Assembly (NCBI RefSeq): GCF_000327485.1
Contig: NC_019943.1
Coordinates: forward strand, 744,001 to 808,000
Direction of reading: 5' to 3'
Length of the DNA stretch: 64,000 nt
Source of the DNA: Methanoregula formicica SMSP
GTDB lineage: Archaea; Halobacteriota; Methanomicrobia; Methanomicrobiales; Methanospirillaceae
Positions within the stretch are counted from its first letter, which is position 1, and every line of letters starts with the position of its first letter. The notes under the pieces are model-generated. The model saw only the letters and a list, made by a program, of their open reading frames with translations. It was not told the origin of the DNA and searched no databases. This document shows positions 11,593 to 18,659 of this stretch, piece by piece. A program made the position numbers and the translations under genes.

Positions 11593-12777
11593 ATGGTAGC
11601 ACGGGAGATTACAAAGGATGTTTTCTGGGTCGGGGCCCTGGACTTCGACCGGAGACTTTTTGACGAACTGATCCCCCTGCCGGAGGGGACGAGCTACAAT
11701 TCGTACCTTATCCGGGGGAGCGAGAAGACTGCGCTGATCGACACGGTCGACCCGAAGAAAGAGGAGGAACTCATCGTCAACCTCATCAAGCTCGGGATCG
11801 AGCAGATCGATTACATCATCATCAACCATGCCGAGCAGGACCATGCCGGCTCCCTCCCCATGGTACTGGAAATGTACCCAAGGGCAAAAGTCGTCACCAA
11901 CGAGAAGTGCCGCGACCTTCTCGTCGCCCTCCTCCAGATCCCGGCGGAGTCCGTCATGGTGATAAAGGACGGGGAAACACTCTCCCTCGGGAATAAGACC
12001 TTACAATTCCATCTCACGCCCTGGACCCACTGGCCGGAGACGCAAGTAACGTTCCTTGTCGAGGATCGCATCCTCTTCCCCTGCGACCTTTTCGGGTTCC
12101 ATCAGGCAACGAGCGAACTGTACATAACAAACGAGGCTGAGGCATACCGGTCCGCAAAACGGTATTTTGCCGAGATCATGATGCCGTTCCGGAACAGCAT
12201 CAGGGGGTACATCCCGAAGGTGAGGGACTTAAACCCGGCCATGATTGCACCGAGCCACGGCCCGATCAACAAGAACCCGAAGTTCATGCTCGATGCGTAC
12301 GAGGACTGGGTTTCGGACACTGTGAAGAACGTGGTCGTCCTGCCCTACGTATCCATGCACGGGAGCACGCAGATCCTGGTCGACCACCTGGTCGGGGCGC
12401 TCATCCAGCGGGGTGTTGAGGTCAAACCGTTCAATCTCTCGCACACGGATATCGGCGAACTGGCCTATGCCCTCGTGGACGCGGCAACAGTCGTTGTCGG
12501 GACACCGACTGTCCTCTTCGGGCCGCACCCCCAGGTGGTCTCTGCCACCTACCTTGCCAATGCCTTAAAACCGAAAATGCGGTTTGCGTCAGTGATCGGG
12601 TCCTATGGCTGGGGCGGGAAAGCGGCCGAGACGATCGTCAAGATGCTGGACCATGTCAAGGTGGAGGTGATTGAGCCGGTTGTTATCAAGGGACTCCCGG
12701 ACGAAGCTGCCGTTGTTGCCATCAACCGCCTTGCCGATGACATTGCAAAGAAACATAAAGAGATCGGTATAGTATAA
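11593..12777 (+). CDS. fprA: Flavodiiron protein (FprA-type oxygen/NO reductase)
   Basis: A 394-residue A-type flavoprotein. The N-terminal metallo-beta-lactamase-like domain has the diiron ligands HAEQDHAG (about 80-87), an SHGP histidine near 220 and TPWTHWPETQ. The C-terminal flavodoxin domain starts around residue 255 (VVVLPYVSMHGSTQILVDHL) and has VVGTPTVLFGPHP and SYGWGGKA. In methanogens this enzyme reduces O2 to water with F420H2 (FprA); elsewhere rubredoxin is the donor. The neighbouring rubredoxin and desulfoferrodoxin genes indicate oxygen and superoxide protection. Confidence 0.93.
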   Translation: MVAREITKDVFWVGALDFDRRLFDELIPLPEGTSYNSYLIRGSEKTALIDTVDPKKEEELIVNLIKLGIEQIDYIIINHAEQDHAGSLPMVLEMYPRAKVVTNEKCRDLLVALLQIPAESVMVIKDGETLSLGNKTLQFHLTPWTHWPETQVTFLVEDRILFPCDLFGFHQATSELYITNEAEAYRSAKRYFAEIMMPFRNSIRGYIPKVRDLNPAMIAPSHGPINKNPKFMLDAYEDWVSDTVKNVVVLPYVSMHGSTQILVDHLVGALIQRGVEVKPFNLSHTDIGELAYALVDAATVVVGTPTVLFGPHPQVVSATYLANALKPKMRFASVIGSYGWGGKAAETIVKMLDHVKVEVIEPVVIKGLPDEAAVVAINRLADDIAKKHKEIGIV

Positions 12778-12793
12778 CCGTGAGGAACAATCC

Positions 12794-13174
12794 ATGACAA
12801 AGATGCTTGAAGTGTACAAGTGCGGGGTCTGCGGGAATATCACGATGGTCGTGAGCCCGTCGGGAGGTACCCTTGTCTGCTGCGGCCAGCCGATGAACCT
12901 GCAGGCCGAGAAGAGAGAAGATGCAGGGAAGGAAAAACATGTCCCGGTCATCGGGAAGACGGCAAACGGGATCCGGGTGAAACTTGGGGCAGTCCCCCAC
13001 CCCATGGAGGAGAAGCACTACATCCAGTGGATCGAAGTGATCTCCGGGGATAACCTGTATGTCCACGGGCTGAAGCCCGGCCAGGCGCCGGAAGCAGAGT
13101 TTCCCGTCAGGGCCGACCATGTCAAGGTAAGGGCGTTCTGCAATGTCCACGGGCTCTGGACAAGCAGCCGGTAA
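12794..13174 (+). CDS. dfx: Desulfoferrodoxin (superoxide reductase)
   Basis: A 126-residue two-domain protein. The N-terminal desulforedoxin-like knuckle has KCGVCGNI and LVCCGQPM (Fe(Cys)4 centre I). The C-terminal superoxide reductase domain has KHVPVI, VPHPMEEKHYIQWIE and AFCNVHGLW, giving the His4Cys ligands of centre II. It reduces superoxide to peroxide without producing O2, using rubredoxin. The start follows GTGAGGA 8 bases upstream. Third gene of the rubredoxin-FprA-desulfoferrodoxin operon. Confidence 0.94.
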   Translation: MTKMLEVYKCGVCGNITMVVSPSGGTLVCCGQPMNLQAEKREDAGKEKHVPVIGKTANGIRVKLGAVPHPMEEKHYIQWIEVISGDNLYVHGLKPGQAPEAEFPVRADHVKVRAFCNVHGLWTSSR

Positions 13175-13233
13175 CTCCTCTTTTTTGCCCCCGCAGGCAA
13201 ATACTAATAGATTCCGGCGGTAACCCAATAGTA

Positions 13234-14691
13234 ATGCGCCGGCTCGAACACCTCTCGACGACCCTTGCCGACCTCGGGGATATCTTCACGTTCATTGCCC
13301 CGGTGACGTGCCTTCCCCTCCTTGTCTGCATCATCTTCTCCGAGTGGGAAATGTTTTTGCCCATGGCCTCCGTCCCGGCCGTCTTTCTTGTTGCCGGCCT
13401 CTTCTTCCGGCAGCTCCCCCGCAGTACCAAGGGGAGCAGGCTCTCGATGGCTATGTGTTCTGTCGCCCTCTTCTGGTTTGCCTGCGCTGTGGTGAGCGGG
13501 ATACCGTTCATGCTGGGCCTGCACATGAGTTTCACCGATGCTGTCTTCGAGGGGATGGCCGGGTGGACAGGCACGGCCTTCTCGATGATCCGGTCCGTGG
13601 ATACCGCCCCCTACACGCTCCTCTTCTGGCGGTCGTACATGCAGTGGATCGGGGGGATCGGGATCATCGCCTTCACGGTGGCGCTGGCCAGCAGCACAGG
13701 GCTGTTCCGGTCGCGGATCTTCCGGGACGAGAGCCGGGACGAATCCCTGATGCCCGCTGTTGCCGCTGCCGGCCGTTCGCTCTGGAAGATCTATGCAGTA
13801 CTCACCTTCTGTGCCATCGGCCTGATCCTTTTTACCGGCCTCTCGCTCTGGGAATCGGTGAATCTCGCCCTTTCGGCGATCTCCACCGGGGGATTCACCC
13901 TGCACGGGGGGGGAATCCTGTACTATGACAGTGTTGTCCTCCAGCTCCTCCTCATCCCGATCATGATCGCGGGTGCCCTGCCCTTCAAGCTCTATTTCCT
14001 GATCCTGGAGCACCGGCGCCTGAGCCTGTTCGGCGACGAGCAGGTCAGGATCTTCTTCCTCCTCCTCCTTGCCGGCACGGCGGTGCTGGTCTACGACATG
14101 GTCCTCTTCTCCGATACCGGCCTGCCTGCCGCAATCCTCCAGGGCCTGTTCATGTCAGCCTCGGCACTGACGACAACCGGGTTCCAGACCGTGAATCTCC
14201 AGACCTGGGCCGGTGTGACGATCCTCTTTCTCGCCATGCTGACCTTTATCGGGGGAGCTGCCGGCAGCACGGCCGGCGGGATCAAACTGGACCGGGTGGC
14301 CTTTGGCGTGCGGGCGCTCCTCTGGTGGTTCCGCCGGCTCTTTGTCAGCGGCAAGGTCCTTGTCCCGTTCCGGATAGAGGGAAGGGTCATCCCGCGGGAT
14401 ACAGCCGAGCTGGAGACGGCAAAGAACATGCTTGTCATCCTCCTCTCCGTTATCATCATCTTTATTGCCTCTCTTGCCGTCCTGCAGTACCACCTCACCA
14501 CGTTCTCCCTGACGGAGATCGTCTTCCAGGTGGTCTCGGCCTTCTCCACCTGCGGCATCAACACCGGGTACGTCATGCCCGATATGCCGGTCATCTCGAA
14601 ATGGATCTTCATCCTCGTGATGTGGATAGGGAGGCTTGAGGTCATCCCGGTCATCATCCTCTTCCTTTCCCTGGTCCGCGGCCCGGAATAA
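13234..14691 (+). CDS. trkH: TrkH/KtrB-family potassium transporter, membrane subunit
   Basis: A 485-residue integral membrane protein with about ten helices and four pore-loop repeats: MAGWTGTAFSM, SAISTGGFTLH, SALTTTGFQTV and SAFSTCGINTGY, each holding the selectivity-filter Gly (the first repeat has T-A-F instead of a canonical Gly). GGIGIIAF and GGAAGSTAGGIKLDR are further TrkH hallmarks. TrkH works with a cytoplasmic TrkA/KtrA NAD-binding subunit, which is not encoded beside it. It is separated from the upstream desulfoferrodoxin by 59 bases and ends 5 bases from the convergent membrane protein gene. Confidence 0.9.
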   Translation: MRRLEHLSTTLADLGDIFTFIAPVTCLPLLVCIIFSEWEMFLPMASVPAVFLVAGLFFRQLPRSTKGSRLSMAMCSVALFWFACAVVSGIPFMLGLHMSFTDAVFEGMAGWTGTAFSMIRSVDTAPYTLLFWRSYMQWIGGIGIIAFTVALASSTGLFRSRIFRDESRDESLMPAVAAAGRSLWKIYAVLTFCAIGLILFTGLSLWESVNLALSAISTGGFTLHGGGILYYDSVVLQLLLIPIMIAGALPFKLYFLILEHRRLSLFGDEQVRIFFLLLLAGTAVLVYDMVLFSDTGLPAAILQGLFMSASALTTTGFQTVNLQTWAGVTILFLAMLTFIGGAAGSTAGGIKLDRVAFGVRALLWWFRRLFVSGKVLVPFRIEGRVIPRDTAELETAKNMLVILLSVIIIFIASLAVLQYHLTTFSLTEIVFQVVSAFSTCGINTGYVMPDMPVISKWIFILVMWIGRLEVIPVIILFLSLVRGPE

Positions 14692-15169: not shown

Positions 15170-15179
15170 TAATATAAAT
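15170..15179 (+). promoter_or_regulatory. TATA box of the nitrogenase-like operon
   Basis: TAATATAAAT is centred about 25 bases before the ATG at 15200, so the predicted transcription start coincides with the start codon and the mRNA is probably leaderless. No Shine-Dalgarno is present before this ATG, which fits. Confidence 0.55.
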
Positions 15180-15199: not shown

Positions 15200-16012
15200 A
15201 TGAAACAGATCGCCCTGTACGGGAAAGGCGGGATCGGGAAGTCCACGACCTCAGCCAACCTCTCTGCCGCGCTCTCCCACCGGGATCTCTCCGTTCTCCA
15301 GATCGGGTGCGACCCCAAGCGCGACAGCACCCGGATGCTGATGCAGGGCCGGTTCATCCCCACGGTCATGGACCTTGTCCGGGTCCGGGGCGATGCCAAT
15401 GTCTCCCTTAAAGATGTCGTCTTCACCGGCTACAATGGCATCCGCTGCGTGGAGGCGGGCGGGCCCGAGCCGGGCGTGGGCTGTGCCGGCCGGGGGATCA
15501 TCGCCACCTTCCAGCTGCTCGAAAAGTTCGGGGCCCTTGACGGCGATGTCATCGTGTACGATGTCCTCGGCGACGTTGTCTGCGGGGGTTTTGCCATGCC
15601 GATGCGGGAGGGCTATGCGCAGGAGATCTATCTTGTCACCTCCGGCGAACTGATGTCCCTGTATGCGGCAAACAACATCTGCAAGGCAGTCCAGAGGCTG
15701 GCCTCGCGGGTGAAGAGCAAGTGCCGGCTTGGCGGTGTGATCTGTAATGCCAAGGGGCAGCCACGCGAAGAGGAACTGGTATCGGAGTTTGCCCGTCGCG
15801 TGAACAGCACGATGGTCCAGTACATCCCCCGGGACCATGTTGTCCAGCAGGCCGAGGTGAACCGGCAGACCGTGATCGAGTTTGCGCCCGACTCGCCCCA
15901 GGCCGGCCATTACCGTTCCCTTGCAGGAAGGATCGTGGAGAACACCAATCTTTCCATCCCTACTCCTCTGGAGACTGATGACCTCGAATCCCTTGCCCGC
16001 GAATTCCTCTAG
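15200..16012 (+). CDS. NifH-like reductase component (Fe protein homologue)
   Basis: A 270-residue Fe-protein homologue: P-loop [11 protein letters not shown] (residues 7-17), [11 protein letters not shown] (35-44), and the two inter-subunit [4Fe-4S] cysteines C95 in GVGCAGRG and C128 in [10 protein letters not shown]. It would be an ATP-driven homodimeric electron donor. The next two genes encode NifD- and NifK-like proteins, overlapping in series, so it belongs to a three-component nitrogenase-like enzyme. It is distinct in context from CfbC, the NifH homologue of F430 synthesis, which works with a single NifD homologue. The substrate is unknown; no NifB, NifE or NifN gene is nearby. Confidence 0.9.
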
Positions 16013-17021
16013 GCTCGGCGGCTGTACGCTCACGGGAGCGATCTCGGTGACCTCCCATCTCCGCGATACGGTCACCGTTGTCCACGGGCCGAAGGGGTGC
16101 AGCCATCACAATGTCTCCCTCCTCCATGCCAGCTGGCTTGACAACGACCATGCTGTCCTCCCCAGCCTCCTCTCCACGGGGCTCTCAGAAAAAGAGGTGA
16201 TCTTCGGGGGGGAGGATGCCCTCCGGAAGGCGATCGGATCCGCGGCGGGACAGGTGGGTGTCCGTGCGGTTGTTGTCCTCTCGACCTGCGTTGTCGGGAC
16301 GATCGGGGACGATGTCGGCGCTGTCTGTTCGGAGGAGTACCGCGTGCCGGTGATATCCATCCCCTCGGCGGGATTCCTCGGGGGCACGTTCCAGGACGGG
16401 ATGAACAATGCCCTCATCGCCCTTGCGGGGACGGCAGGGCCCTGCCAGAAAGACCGCGGTGTCAACATCATCGGGGAGATGAACCTCGAATTCGAGGTTG
16501 AGGAGAATTACCGGGAGATCGAACGGCTACTCTCACTCCTGCACCTCCCGGTGAACCTCCGGTTTGTCCACAACCTTTCGTGGGACCAGATTGCTCGGCT
16601 CGGGAGAGCAGAGCTCAATATCCTGCGGAGCCCGGCTCTTGTTCCCGTGGGAGAGTACCTGAAAAACCGGTTCGGCACCCCGTACATTGCCTCGTTCCCC
16701 CACGGGCTCTCTGCAACCCTCTCGTTCATTCGTGAGGTTGCAGTACTCTGCGGGGTCGACGGGCAGGAAGCGCTCAGGGAGGAGTGCCTGCGGCAGGAAG
16801 AGATGCTTGGCCAGTTCTCCGATCTCCGACAGGTGCCCGTCTCCTTCGACCGCGTCCACTCCGGAGAGGACGAACTCCTTGCTGCCGAGGAGCTGGCTGC
16901 TGCGCTGGACCTGGTGATGGGCACCCCGGGGACGTGTGCCCGGCTGCCGGTGAGCGCTGCTGTCGGGACCGCCGGGACACGGCGGATGCTCCACCGCTGG
17001 CGGAGGGCTGCCCATGCCTGA
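15978..17021 (+). CDS. NifD-like catalytic component of a nitrogenase-like enzyme
   Basis: About 347 residues, far shorter than NifD (about 480). The ATG at 15978 follows GGAG by 5 bases and overlaps the NifH-like gene by 35 bases. Three cysteines fall in nitrogenase P-cluster contexts: C16 in GGCTLTGA, C41 in [10 protein letters not shown] and C104 in [11 protein letters not shown]. No equivalents of the FeMo-cofactor Cys and His ligands could be seen. A bound Fe-S cluster shared with the NifK-like partner is therefore likely, but the active-site cofactor is open: a substrate bound directly (as in protochlorophyllide reductases) or a different metallocluster. Confidence 0.82.
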
Positions 17022-18135
17022 GTGCGACAATCCCCTCTGGCCATGCGCCATGACCGGTGCTGCCGCCTGCCTTGCCGGGTTCGACGGGATTGCGGTTGTC
17101 ATCCACGGTTCCAGCGGGTGTTATTACTATCCCACGACCCTCCTCCATGCCCCGCTCCATGGTACGTTCATCCTCGAGGACGACGTGATCTTCGGGTCGG
17201 AGGACCGGCTCCAGGAGGTGATCGGCAGCCTGTCGGGAACGGGAAAACGGATCGCAGTCATCACGACCTGCGTTCCCGCCCTCCTTGGGGAAGACATCCG
17301 CTCCATGCTCGCCGAGCACGATGTGATCCTTGTCGACAGCCCGGGCTTTGCCGGGGACGTCGAGACCGGCTATGCCCGCGCCCTTGCCATGCTTGAACCC
17401 CGGGTTGACCCGGAATCGGCCGGTGTCAACATTGACGGGACCTGTCTCTTCGACCCGTTTGCTGCCGGGAACGTCCAGGAGATCAGAAGGCTCCTTGGCA
17501 TGGCGGCAGTCCCCGTTGCATCGGTCTTTTCATCGGACCGGTACGACCGCGTGCACCATGCTGCCCCGTACACCATCGGAACCAACGGGGACTTCCCCTC
17601 CGGAGTCGGGGACAATCTTGGCGGAATGCTGGGTCTTGCGGGCATCCGTGAGACTTTCGCCCGGATTGGCGACACTGTTGATGGTGCCGACTGCGACCCG
17701 GTCTTTTCGGAACTGGAGCAGCAGGAGGAGCGCCTTGTCCGGGCCTGCGACAAGTTTCTCCAGCGGTACGATCCCCCGTCTGCTGCGATCTTTGCCGGCT
17801 TCTCGTATGCCCTCTTTGCCGCTGAAGCCCTCCATACCTACCTCGACGCGGAGATCTGCTGCATCGGGACCCGGAATGCACCCGGCGAGAGCCGTTTCAG
17901 GGCTGAGCAGGTATCCGGTCTCTCGCGGGTCCGCGACCTGATCGCGACCCATGACCCGGACCTCGTGATAGGGTCCTCGTTCGAACGCTCGCTTACAGGA
18001 GAGAAAGCATTTACCGGGATCATCCCCCCGCTCCGGGGCCGGGTCAGGATCTATCCTGCACCGCTCGCCGGCATCAACGGCACACTCTCGTTCATGGAAT
18101 CGGTGCTGAACTCCTGCATGGATAAAAAACCCTGA
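17014..18135 (+). CDS. NifK-like component of a nitrogenase-like enzyme
   Basis: A 373-residue protein overlapping the NifD-like gene by 8 bases. Cysteines in P-cluster-like settings are C11 in WPCAMTGA, C36 in HGSSGCYYYP and C86 in TTCVPALLGED. Having three in this chain, plus three in the partner, resembles nitrogenase and methylthio-alkane reductase rather than BchB/ChlB, where one ligand is Asp. The remainder has Rossmann-like repeats (GVNIDGTCLFDPF, AIFAGFSYALFAAEAL, LVIGSSFERSL, PLAGINGTLSF). CCCCG...CGGGG hairpin sequence follows the stop at 18181-18197. Confidence 0.8.
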   Translation: MPECDNPLWPCAMTGAAACLAGFDGIAVVIHGSSGCYYYPTTLLHAPLHGTFILEDDVIFGSEDRLQEVIGSLSGTGKRIAVITTCVPALLGEDIRSMLAEHDVILVDSPGFAGDVETGYARALAMLEPRVDPESAGVNIDGTCLFDPFAAGNVQEIRRLLGMAAVPVASVFSSDRYDRVHHAAPYTIGTNGDFPSGVGDNLGGMLGLAGIRETFARIGDTVDGADCDPVFSELEQQEERLVRACDKFLQRYDPPSAAIFAGFSYALFAAEALHTYLDAEICCIGTRNAPGESRFRAEQVSGLSRVRDLIATHDPDLVIGSSFERSLTGEKAFTGIIPPLRGRVRIYPAPLAGINGTLSFMESVLNSCMDKKP

Positions 18136-18248: not shown

Positions 18249-18659
18249 ATGATGGAAAAAGCAGGGTATCTCCAGGCAACAAGGTCGCAGGCAGTTGACA
18301 GCGATGGCATCCCCCACGGGATTGTCGAGCTCCACATCCTCGGGAACCGGTACGCAATCCGCCGCTCCGACCTGATCCGGGCCGTCAGTGGCAGGGTCCA
18401 CGTCCAGGTCGAGGACCTTACCCGGAACTGGGGCGATTTCCTGGGCCAGACCCGGGGCCTTGCGCAGGTCTCGGCATCCGGAAAGGCCCTGAACATCGAC
18501 CTGTTCGGGCTGGGCAGTTATACCCTCTCGCTGTCATCGCTCAAGGCCGTGCTCTACGGCAAGGAACGCCTTGCGGTCATCGTCCGCATCCCCGAAGCCC
18601 CGCTGGTCAGGATCCGAAGGGTAACGGATGGCCAGCAGACCATTGGCGCCGCAGTCTGA
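18249..18659 (+). CDS. Unrecognised 136-residue soluble protein
   Basis: I do not recognise this protein. It is soluble-looking and beta-rich: GIVELHILGNRYAIRRSDLI, then VHVQVEDLTRNWGDFLGQ, ALNIDLFGLGSYTLSLSSLKAVL and LAVIVRIPEAPLVRIRRV. There are no cysteines or obvious catalytic motifs. It has its own TATA box and a GGTGG ribosome site 6-10 bases before the first of two adjacent ATGs. It lies 113 bases after the NifK-like gene, but a functional link is not shown. Confidence 0.6.
   Translation: MMEKAGYLQATRSQAVDSDGIPHGIVELHILGNRYAIRRSDLIRAVSGRVHVQVEDLTRNWGDFLGQTRGLAQVSASGKALNIDLFGLGSYTLSLSSLKAVLYGKERLAVIVRIPEAPLVRIRRVTDGQQTIGAAV

Follow-up and report, generated by a model that had tools for sequence, protein, structure and literature searches.

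A 64,000-nucleotide stretch of the Methanoregula formicica SMSP genome (a single complete contig, NC_019943.1, of 2,820,858 bases), spanning positions 744,001 to 808,000 and here called the window, carries three nitrogenase-like genes, H, D, and K (Table 1). An initial annotation, made from the letters alone, had described them as overlapping, and this was confirmed: H and D share 35 nucleotides, and D and K share 8. In Pfam searches, H matched Fer4_NifH with 360 bits, while D and K matched Oxidored_nitro with 187 and 118 bits, respectively. A TATA-like element precedes H at a spacing that fits a leaderless H-D-K message, judging from the sequence. A similar element occurs at an equal distance upstream of H in the close relatives L054, L055, L056, and L061 but not in all families.

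Table 1. Positions of the genes and features discussed (window numbering unless a locus or genome is named)
Feature	Location	Strand	Description
H	15200-16012	+	ATG at 15200, stop at 16012; 270 amino acids; NifH-type ATPase/reductase, probable CfbC
D	15978-17021	+	347 amino acids; compact NifD/NifE-like subunit, domain III largely missing
K	17014-18135	+	373 amino acids; compact NifK/NifN-like subunit
TATA-like promoter element	15170-15179	+	taatataaat; 21-30 nucleotides 5' of the H ATG; read from the sequence
Upstream block	11593-14691		FprA-type flavodiiron protein, desulfoferrodoxin, KtrB/TrkH-type potassium transporter; directly 5' of H
Small conserved protein	18249-18659		136 amino acids; directly 3' of K
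NifB	G000:C1:2489805-2490617		above its model cutoff
X family member	L133:7427-8617		single-chain NifD/E-like
X family member	L134:7450-8703		single-chain NifD/E-like
X family member	L137:6855-8129		single-chain NifD/E-like
Further X family members	L135, L138-L141		single-chain NifD/E-like

Compared with near relatives, the ratio of nonsynonymous to synonymous substitutions (dN/dS) was 0.08 to 0.19 for D, 0.13 to 0.17 for K, and 0.00 to 0.07 for H. D and K are under purifying selection. Furthermore, AlphaFold2 models built on 22-sequence alignments reached a predicted local distance difference test (pLDDT) score of 87.7 for D and 90.5 for K, and their best matches among solved structures were NifEN, NifDK, and BchB chains. 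Because of the low dN/dS and of these confident models, we consider the H-D-K operon to be more than a chance arrangement.

The operon is not the curiosity of a single methanogen for which it could at first be taken but an order-wide trait. Among 135 Methanomicrobiales genomes of at least 90% completeness, H was present in 129, the six misses being fragmented assemblies, and D was present in 124. D was absent from all seven Methanospirillum-type genomes, from G130, and from three fragmented genomes. The overlap between H and D is kept throughout the order. In a sample of 393 Halobacteriota genomes, full-length K was found in 81 genomes of the order and nowhere else; K matches in 19 other genomes did not exceed 107 bits and covered the first domain only, and plasmids gave only partial NifK/NifN-type matches. 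In one family (f4), K lies 2 to 5 kb from H-D, sometimes on the opposite strand, and is still kept; the unrelated genes in between were not counted as partners. One genome (G182) harbors two H-D-K copies on separate contigs (C28 and C32), whose H proteins are about 80 to 82% identical to that of the window.

The complete genome encodes no NifH-type protein besides H. Indeed, the next matches in the PF00142 search did not exceed 36 bits, as is usual for distant P-loop relatives. A single NifH-type match was likewise obtained in at least 11 further genomes of the order, almost all of which consist of one contig (G140, G103, G120, G121, G085, G088, G043, G046, G052, G056, and G189). All of these organisms make or need F430, and the genomes that were checked carry CfbD. 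H scored 415 bits against the NCBI CfbC model NF033200, thus passing its cutoff of 402, and 392 bits against the NifH model, just missing its cutoff of 394. The CfbD of M. formicica reached 504 bits against TIGR03282 (cutoff, 268), a model against which D and K remained at 46 and 39 bits. Around its gene lie that for CfbB (662 bits, above the NCBIfam cutoff), one for a branched-chain aminotransferase, and a CfbE-like frame. In L133, the syntenic cluster encodes CfbA and CfbE, both above their NCBIfam cutoffs. Neither of these two cfb clusters contains a NifH-type gene. Additionally, Methanospirillum and G130 retain H at the same locus without D-K, close to FprA and to the small conserved downstream gene, and possess CfbD. 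Since H is the sole NifH-type protein, the cfb cluster lacks cfbC, and H is kept where D-K has been lost, H very probably does the job of CfbC in Methanomicrobiales and powers CfbD as well as D-K. The initial annotation missed this second role, with which the operon would be more than a self-contained third reductase.

We then considered which metal clusters the three proteins could hold. In agreement with what had been read from the sequence alone, the P-loop and the cysteines C95 and C128 of H are invariant (alignment A4), and D and K each have three cysteines in P-cluster contexts. In an alignment of 104 nitrogenase-type chains, C16, C41, and C104 of D and C11, C36, and C86 of K occupy the P-cluster columns of NifD and NifK. 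Across 22 homologues each of D and K, all six are unchanged, and so are C117 of D and C4 of K. These columns read C/C/C in D, K, NifD, NifE, and NifK, S/C/C in CfbD, S/C/A in NifN, and P/D/C in BchB. The column of NifD Cys275, which holds the iron-molybdenum cofactor (FeMo-co) or the L-cluster, contains an arginine (R217) in all 15 aligned D sequences and a gap in K; it is a cysteine in NifD, NifE, the alpha chains of Mar-like systems, and a family of single-chain proteins, here called X. D also lacks the stretch around His442 and the greater part of domain III. The initial statement that D and K, short as they are, show no FeMo-co ligands therefore stands. Because the six cysteines are kept, Cys275 is replaced or deleted, and the His442 region is gone, D-K can, as far as its sequence tells, accommodate a P-cluster-type relay, whereas it has no site for a carbide cluster of the types known.

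Two assignments were rejected on these grounds. A nitrogenase lacks support, as there are neither FeMo-co ligands nor nifEN, and a NifEN-like cofactor scaffold was discarded as the main reading because the L-cluster cysteine is replaced. No NifEN or other structural nif genes were found in the genome, where PF00148 matched only D, K, and CfbD; a NifB is encoded in this genome devoid of nitrogenase (Table 1).

To place the system, we computed single-chain trees of 108 and 56 chains and a concatenated H+D+K tree of 33 systems. D and K formed separate clades (99-100%), apart from NifDKEN, the Mar-like group IV pairs, CfbD, and Bch. No characterized clade took in all three chains, which is in agreement with the distinct nitrogenase-like system initially suggested. 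The label "group IV-like" did not hold: the concatenated tree united Nif and Mar-like group IV in one clade (100/98), outside of which H-D-K (100/100) was sister to the H::E-N fusion system (95/89). Single-chain support for this sisterhood was uneven (D with the fusion E, 96; K with the fusion N, 74; H with the fusion H, 68/17).

The H::E-N system of Methanomicrobiales, a fused nifH-nifE-like gene with a nifN-like gene, was mentioned by Dos Santos et al. in 2012 (PMC3464626). We read six of its loci (L279 to L284, from G197, G201, G207 twice, G112, and G114), and tetrapyrrole- or corrinoid-type genes accompanied the fusion operon in all six. Between them, these loci hold a CobN/ChlH-type chelatase, ChlI/VWA subunits, CbiZ, CbiK, BtuR, and FecCD/Peripla_BP_2 (BtuF-type) transport genes, and the chelatase scored 950 bits against the CobN model (cutoff, 822). 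The fusion system is thus a candidate reductase of a salvaged corrinoid or another tetrapyrrole. A tetrapyrrole or corrinoid is its likely substrate and therefore, less certainly, that of H-D-K. The two systems also share the absence of the cysteine at position 275 from E and D, with an arginine in two of five E chains. However, H and E are fused whereas H and D are separate genes, and the inspected N chain lacks two of the three P-cluster cysteines (D/C/P). Furthermore, the fusion operon keeps company with CobN, chelatase-like, CbiZ, and B12-type transport genes, while H-D-K lies in a housekeeping neighborhood without these.

Comparison with better-known systems sets H-D-K apart from each of them. 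It resembles CfbCD in that H scores above the CfbC cutoff and has no competitor for the role of CfbC, in its compact catalytic chains of about 350 amino acids, and in having no carbide cluster site. It differs in that D-K would be a heteromer with three cysteines per chain, unlike the CfbD homodimer with two. With NifDK and NifEN it shares the fold, a NifH-type reductase, and, as in NifDK, three P-cluster cysteines per chain, but D-K has no equivalents of Cys275 and His442, and domain III of D is largely missing. The three-gene layout and the six P-cluster cysteines are also those of the group IV NflHDK systems (MarHDK, IsrHDK, and relatives), whose alpha chains, in contrast to D with its arginine, keep the 275 cysteine of the [Fe8S9C] site. 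Like BchLNB, finally, H-D-K would be a reductase using only the P-site, without a carbide cluster, and K matches the BchB structure with a template modeling (TM) score of 0.83; however, BchLNB ligates its cluster by three cysteines and one aspartate and belongs to a separate clade.

On this basis, our best overall explanation, to which we give slightly less than an even chance, is that H is the CfbC serving both CfbD and a P-cluster-only D-K, and that D-K acts on a tetrapyrrole-type macrocycle. H would be the cell's single MgATP-dependent [4Fe-4S] iron protein, passing low-potential electrons one by one to two partners. One would be CfbD, encoded elsewhere, in the reductive cyclization step of F430 synthesis. 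The other would be the cotranscribed D-K, presumably a (DK)2-type heterotetramer in which the six cysteines at each D-K interface hold a P-cluster-type [8Fe-7S] (or 4Fe) relay. Such a complex would have neither an L- nor an M-cluster, and with the third domain of D largely missing, its cofactor cavity would be left unclosed, as an open cleft. After binding MgATP, H would dock at the D-K interface and hand single electrons to the P-cluster-type site. Because there is no carbide cluster and the cleft of D is open, the substrate would be large and reduced beside this site. The most likely candidate is a voluminous organic macrocycle, namely an F430- or corrinoid-family tetrapyrrole, intact or damaged, which would take its electrons straight from the P-cluster site in the manner of the BchNB and CfbD substrates. 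The F430/corrinoid tetrapyrroles are the best-supported class since CfbD would draw on H too and the sister system resides in corrinoid loci, and a modified, salvaged, or repaired tetrapyrrole is a natural guess. More tentatively, and with some doubt, H-D-K might represent an unrecognized, Methanomicrobiales-specific branch of the nitrogenase superfamily, a P-cluster-only heteromeric reductase or repair enzyme for F430/corrinoid-type tetrapyrroles, in which a NifH-derived H replaced CfbC and powers two components.

Several observations weigh against these interpretations. At the 18 loci surveyed in six families, no corrinoid, F430, or tetrapyrrole gene adjoins H-D-K, and the conserved neighbors are of a housekeeping kind: a KtrB/TrkH-type transporter, FprA, desulfoferrodoxin, a phosphoribulokinase-like protein, and LeuCDB/Aks-like proteins. 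The initial remark that no cofactor-assembly genes lie alongside was also upheld. The substrate of the fusion system, from which that of D-K is extrapolated, is deduced from gene neighbors. Single-chain approximately unbiased (AU) tests leave the deep placement of D unfixed, as they rejected neither a grouping with CfbD (p 0.30) nor one with NifD/E (p 0.23). Moreover, D-K is dispensable for F430 as such, because Methanospirillum makes F430 without it. The identity of H itself is also affected. H forms its own clade (99/97), distinct from that of canonical CfbC (100/100) and leaning toward NifH, and in none of nine Methanomicrobiales cfbD loci does H or a cfbC adjoin cfbD, whereas cfbC does so in 71 of 80 cfbD loci of Methanosarcinales. 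It is on these two points that one could argue that H is not a CfbC at all, CfbD being served by an unrelated reductase and H working with D-K only. We hold this to be highly improbable, given that H has outlived the loss of D-K, exceeds the cutoff of the CfbC model, and is unaccompanied by any other NifH-type protein in complete genomes. In AU tests, a clade of H and CfbC was 10.7 log units worse (p 0.10), and one of H and NifH gave a p of 0.51. Because the former is not rejected, a strict claim that H replaced CfbC has to be toned down: H may be either a CfbC that has diverged strongly or a paralogue that has assumed its function.

Other roles for D-K were weighed against that of a reductase acting on a separate tetrapyrrole. 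The shared H and the CfbD-like compact length of D and K (347 and 373 versus 354 amino acids) would suit an accessory role in the F430 step itself, in which H, CfbD, and D-K share the six-electron reductive cyclization and D-K handles some of the reduction or feeds electrons to CfbD. We consider this unlikely, since the CfbD of the order is fully conserved, Methanospirillum and G130 manage on H and CfbD alone, and D-K never adjoins cfbD in the loci read. D-K could also be an electron relay or cluster handler in the activation of methyl-coenzyme M reductase (MCR), whose activation complex contains [8Fe-9S-C] clusters. The presence of NifB without nitrogenase is what one would expect if L-clusters serve that complex (PMC12176620), and H fits a low-potential, ATP-coupled delivery. 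Yet D-K lacks L-cluster ligands, and no mcr or activation gene was recognized in its neighborhood; MCR activation is required by all methanogens, while full-length K turned up only in Methanomicrobiales among the Halobacteriota sampled and several genera of that order lack it. This role appears distinctly unlikely.

Very improbable, finally, is a small-molecule reductase acting on a sulfur compound, as do methylthio-alkane and isethionate reductases, or on another C-X bond. Mar and Isr do show that the scaffold can cleave C-S bonds (PMC12552129, PMC11423573), and the six P-cluster cysteines are common to Mar-like pairs, but Mar-like D chains keep the Cys275 equivalent and clade with Nif. Cofactor ligands are absent from D-K, and no radical SAM or sulfur genes of the Mar/Isr type were recognized in its surroundings.

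Methanogen NflH and NflD were once proposed to act in F430 synthesis and were later shown to be CfbC and CfbD (PMC3087415, PMC7242693). Archaeal nitrogenase-like pairs that lack FeMo-co ligands were described by Dos Santos et al. (PMC3464626); among them are Methanocorpusculum proteins with a two-plus-one cysteine pattern, unlike D-K with its six. Group VI of Meheust et al., with putative tetrapyrrole cofactor genes, is named in two further papers (PMC9391474, PMC12176620), and its cluster content is debated in the 2025 study on MCR activation (PMC12176620). In the openly accessible literature, we found no account of the H-D-K operon, of H as the sole CfbC candidate, or of the loss of D-K with retention of H; prior notice in subscription papers is possible. 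If our explanation is correct, the methanogens of an entire order, major ones in wetlands and the rumen, make F430 with a reductase unlike the characterized one and use it to drive a second, unstudied enzyme. D-K would also offer a natural example of a P-cluster site with no carbide cluster at all, a case relevant to the debate on the sequence in which nitrogenases acquired their clusters (PMC12176620, PMC12552129). Similarly, many "nifH" reads from methanogen-rich sites would stem from an F430-type reductase and not from nitrogen fixation.

Some further observations concern the surroundings of these genes. The block formed by FprA, desulfoferrodoxin, and the KtrB/TrkH-type transporter stays upstream of H in many relatives and constitutes an oxygen-defense neighborhood. 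A role in F430 repair by re-reduction of the oxidized cofactor, prompted by FprA and desulfoferrodoxin, was judged weak because Methanospirillum, although devoid of D-K, likewise has FprA beside H. The 136-amino-acid protein encoded after K is found downstream of the lone H of Methanospirillum as well, and its homologue in L056 had no NCBIfam match.

In eight loci (L271 to L278) from ANME-2c-like and other Methanosarcinales contigs, some of them short, cfbD had no neighboring cfbC. In two incomplete genomes of family f7 (G259 and G232; L177 and L178), the only NifH-type protein found belongs to another clade (Hs) and adjoins a D-like gene of 440 to 484 amino acids, which may be another instance of replacement of the canonical CfbC. 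The X proteins (about 390 to 425 amino acids) combine the three P-cluster cysteines and the L-cluster cysteine of the 275 column with a conserved MHG motif near the His442 region. In families f4 and f6, their gene follows closely after cfbD-cfbB-ilvE, and X might be a homomeric protein that carries a carbide cluster and has a connection to F430 or MCR.

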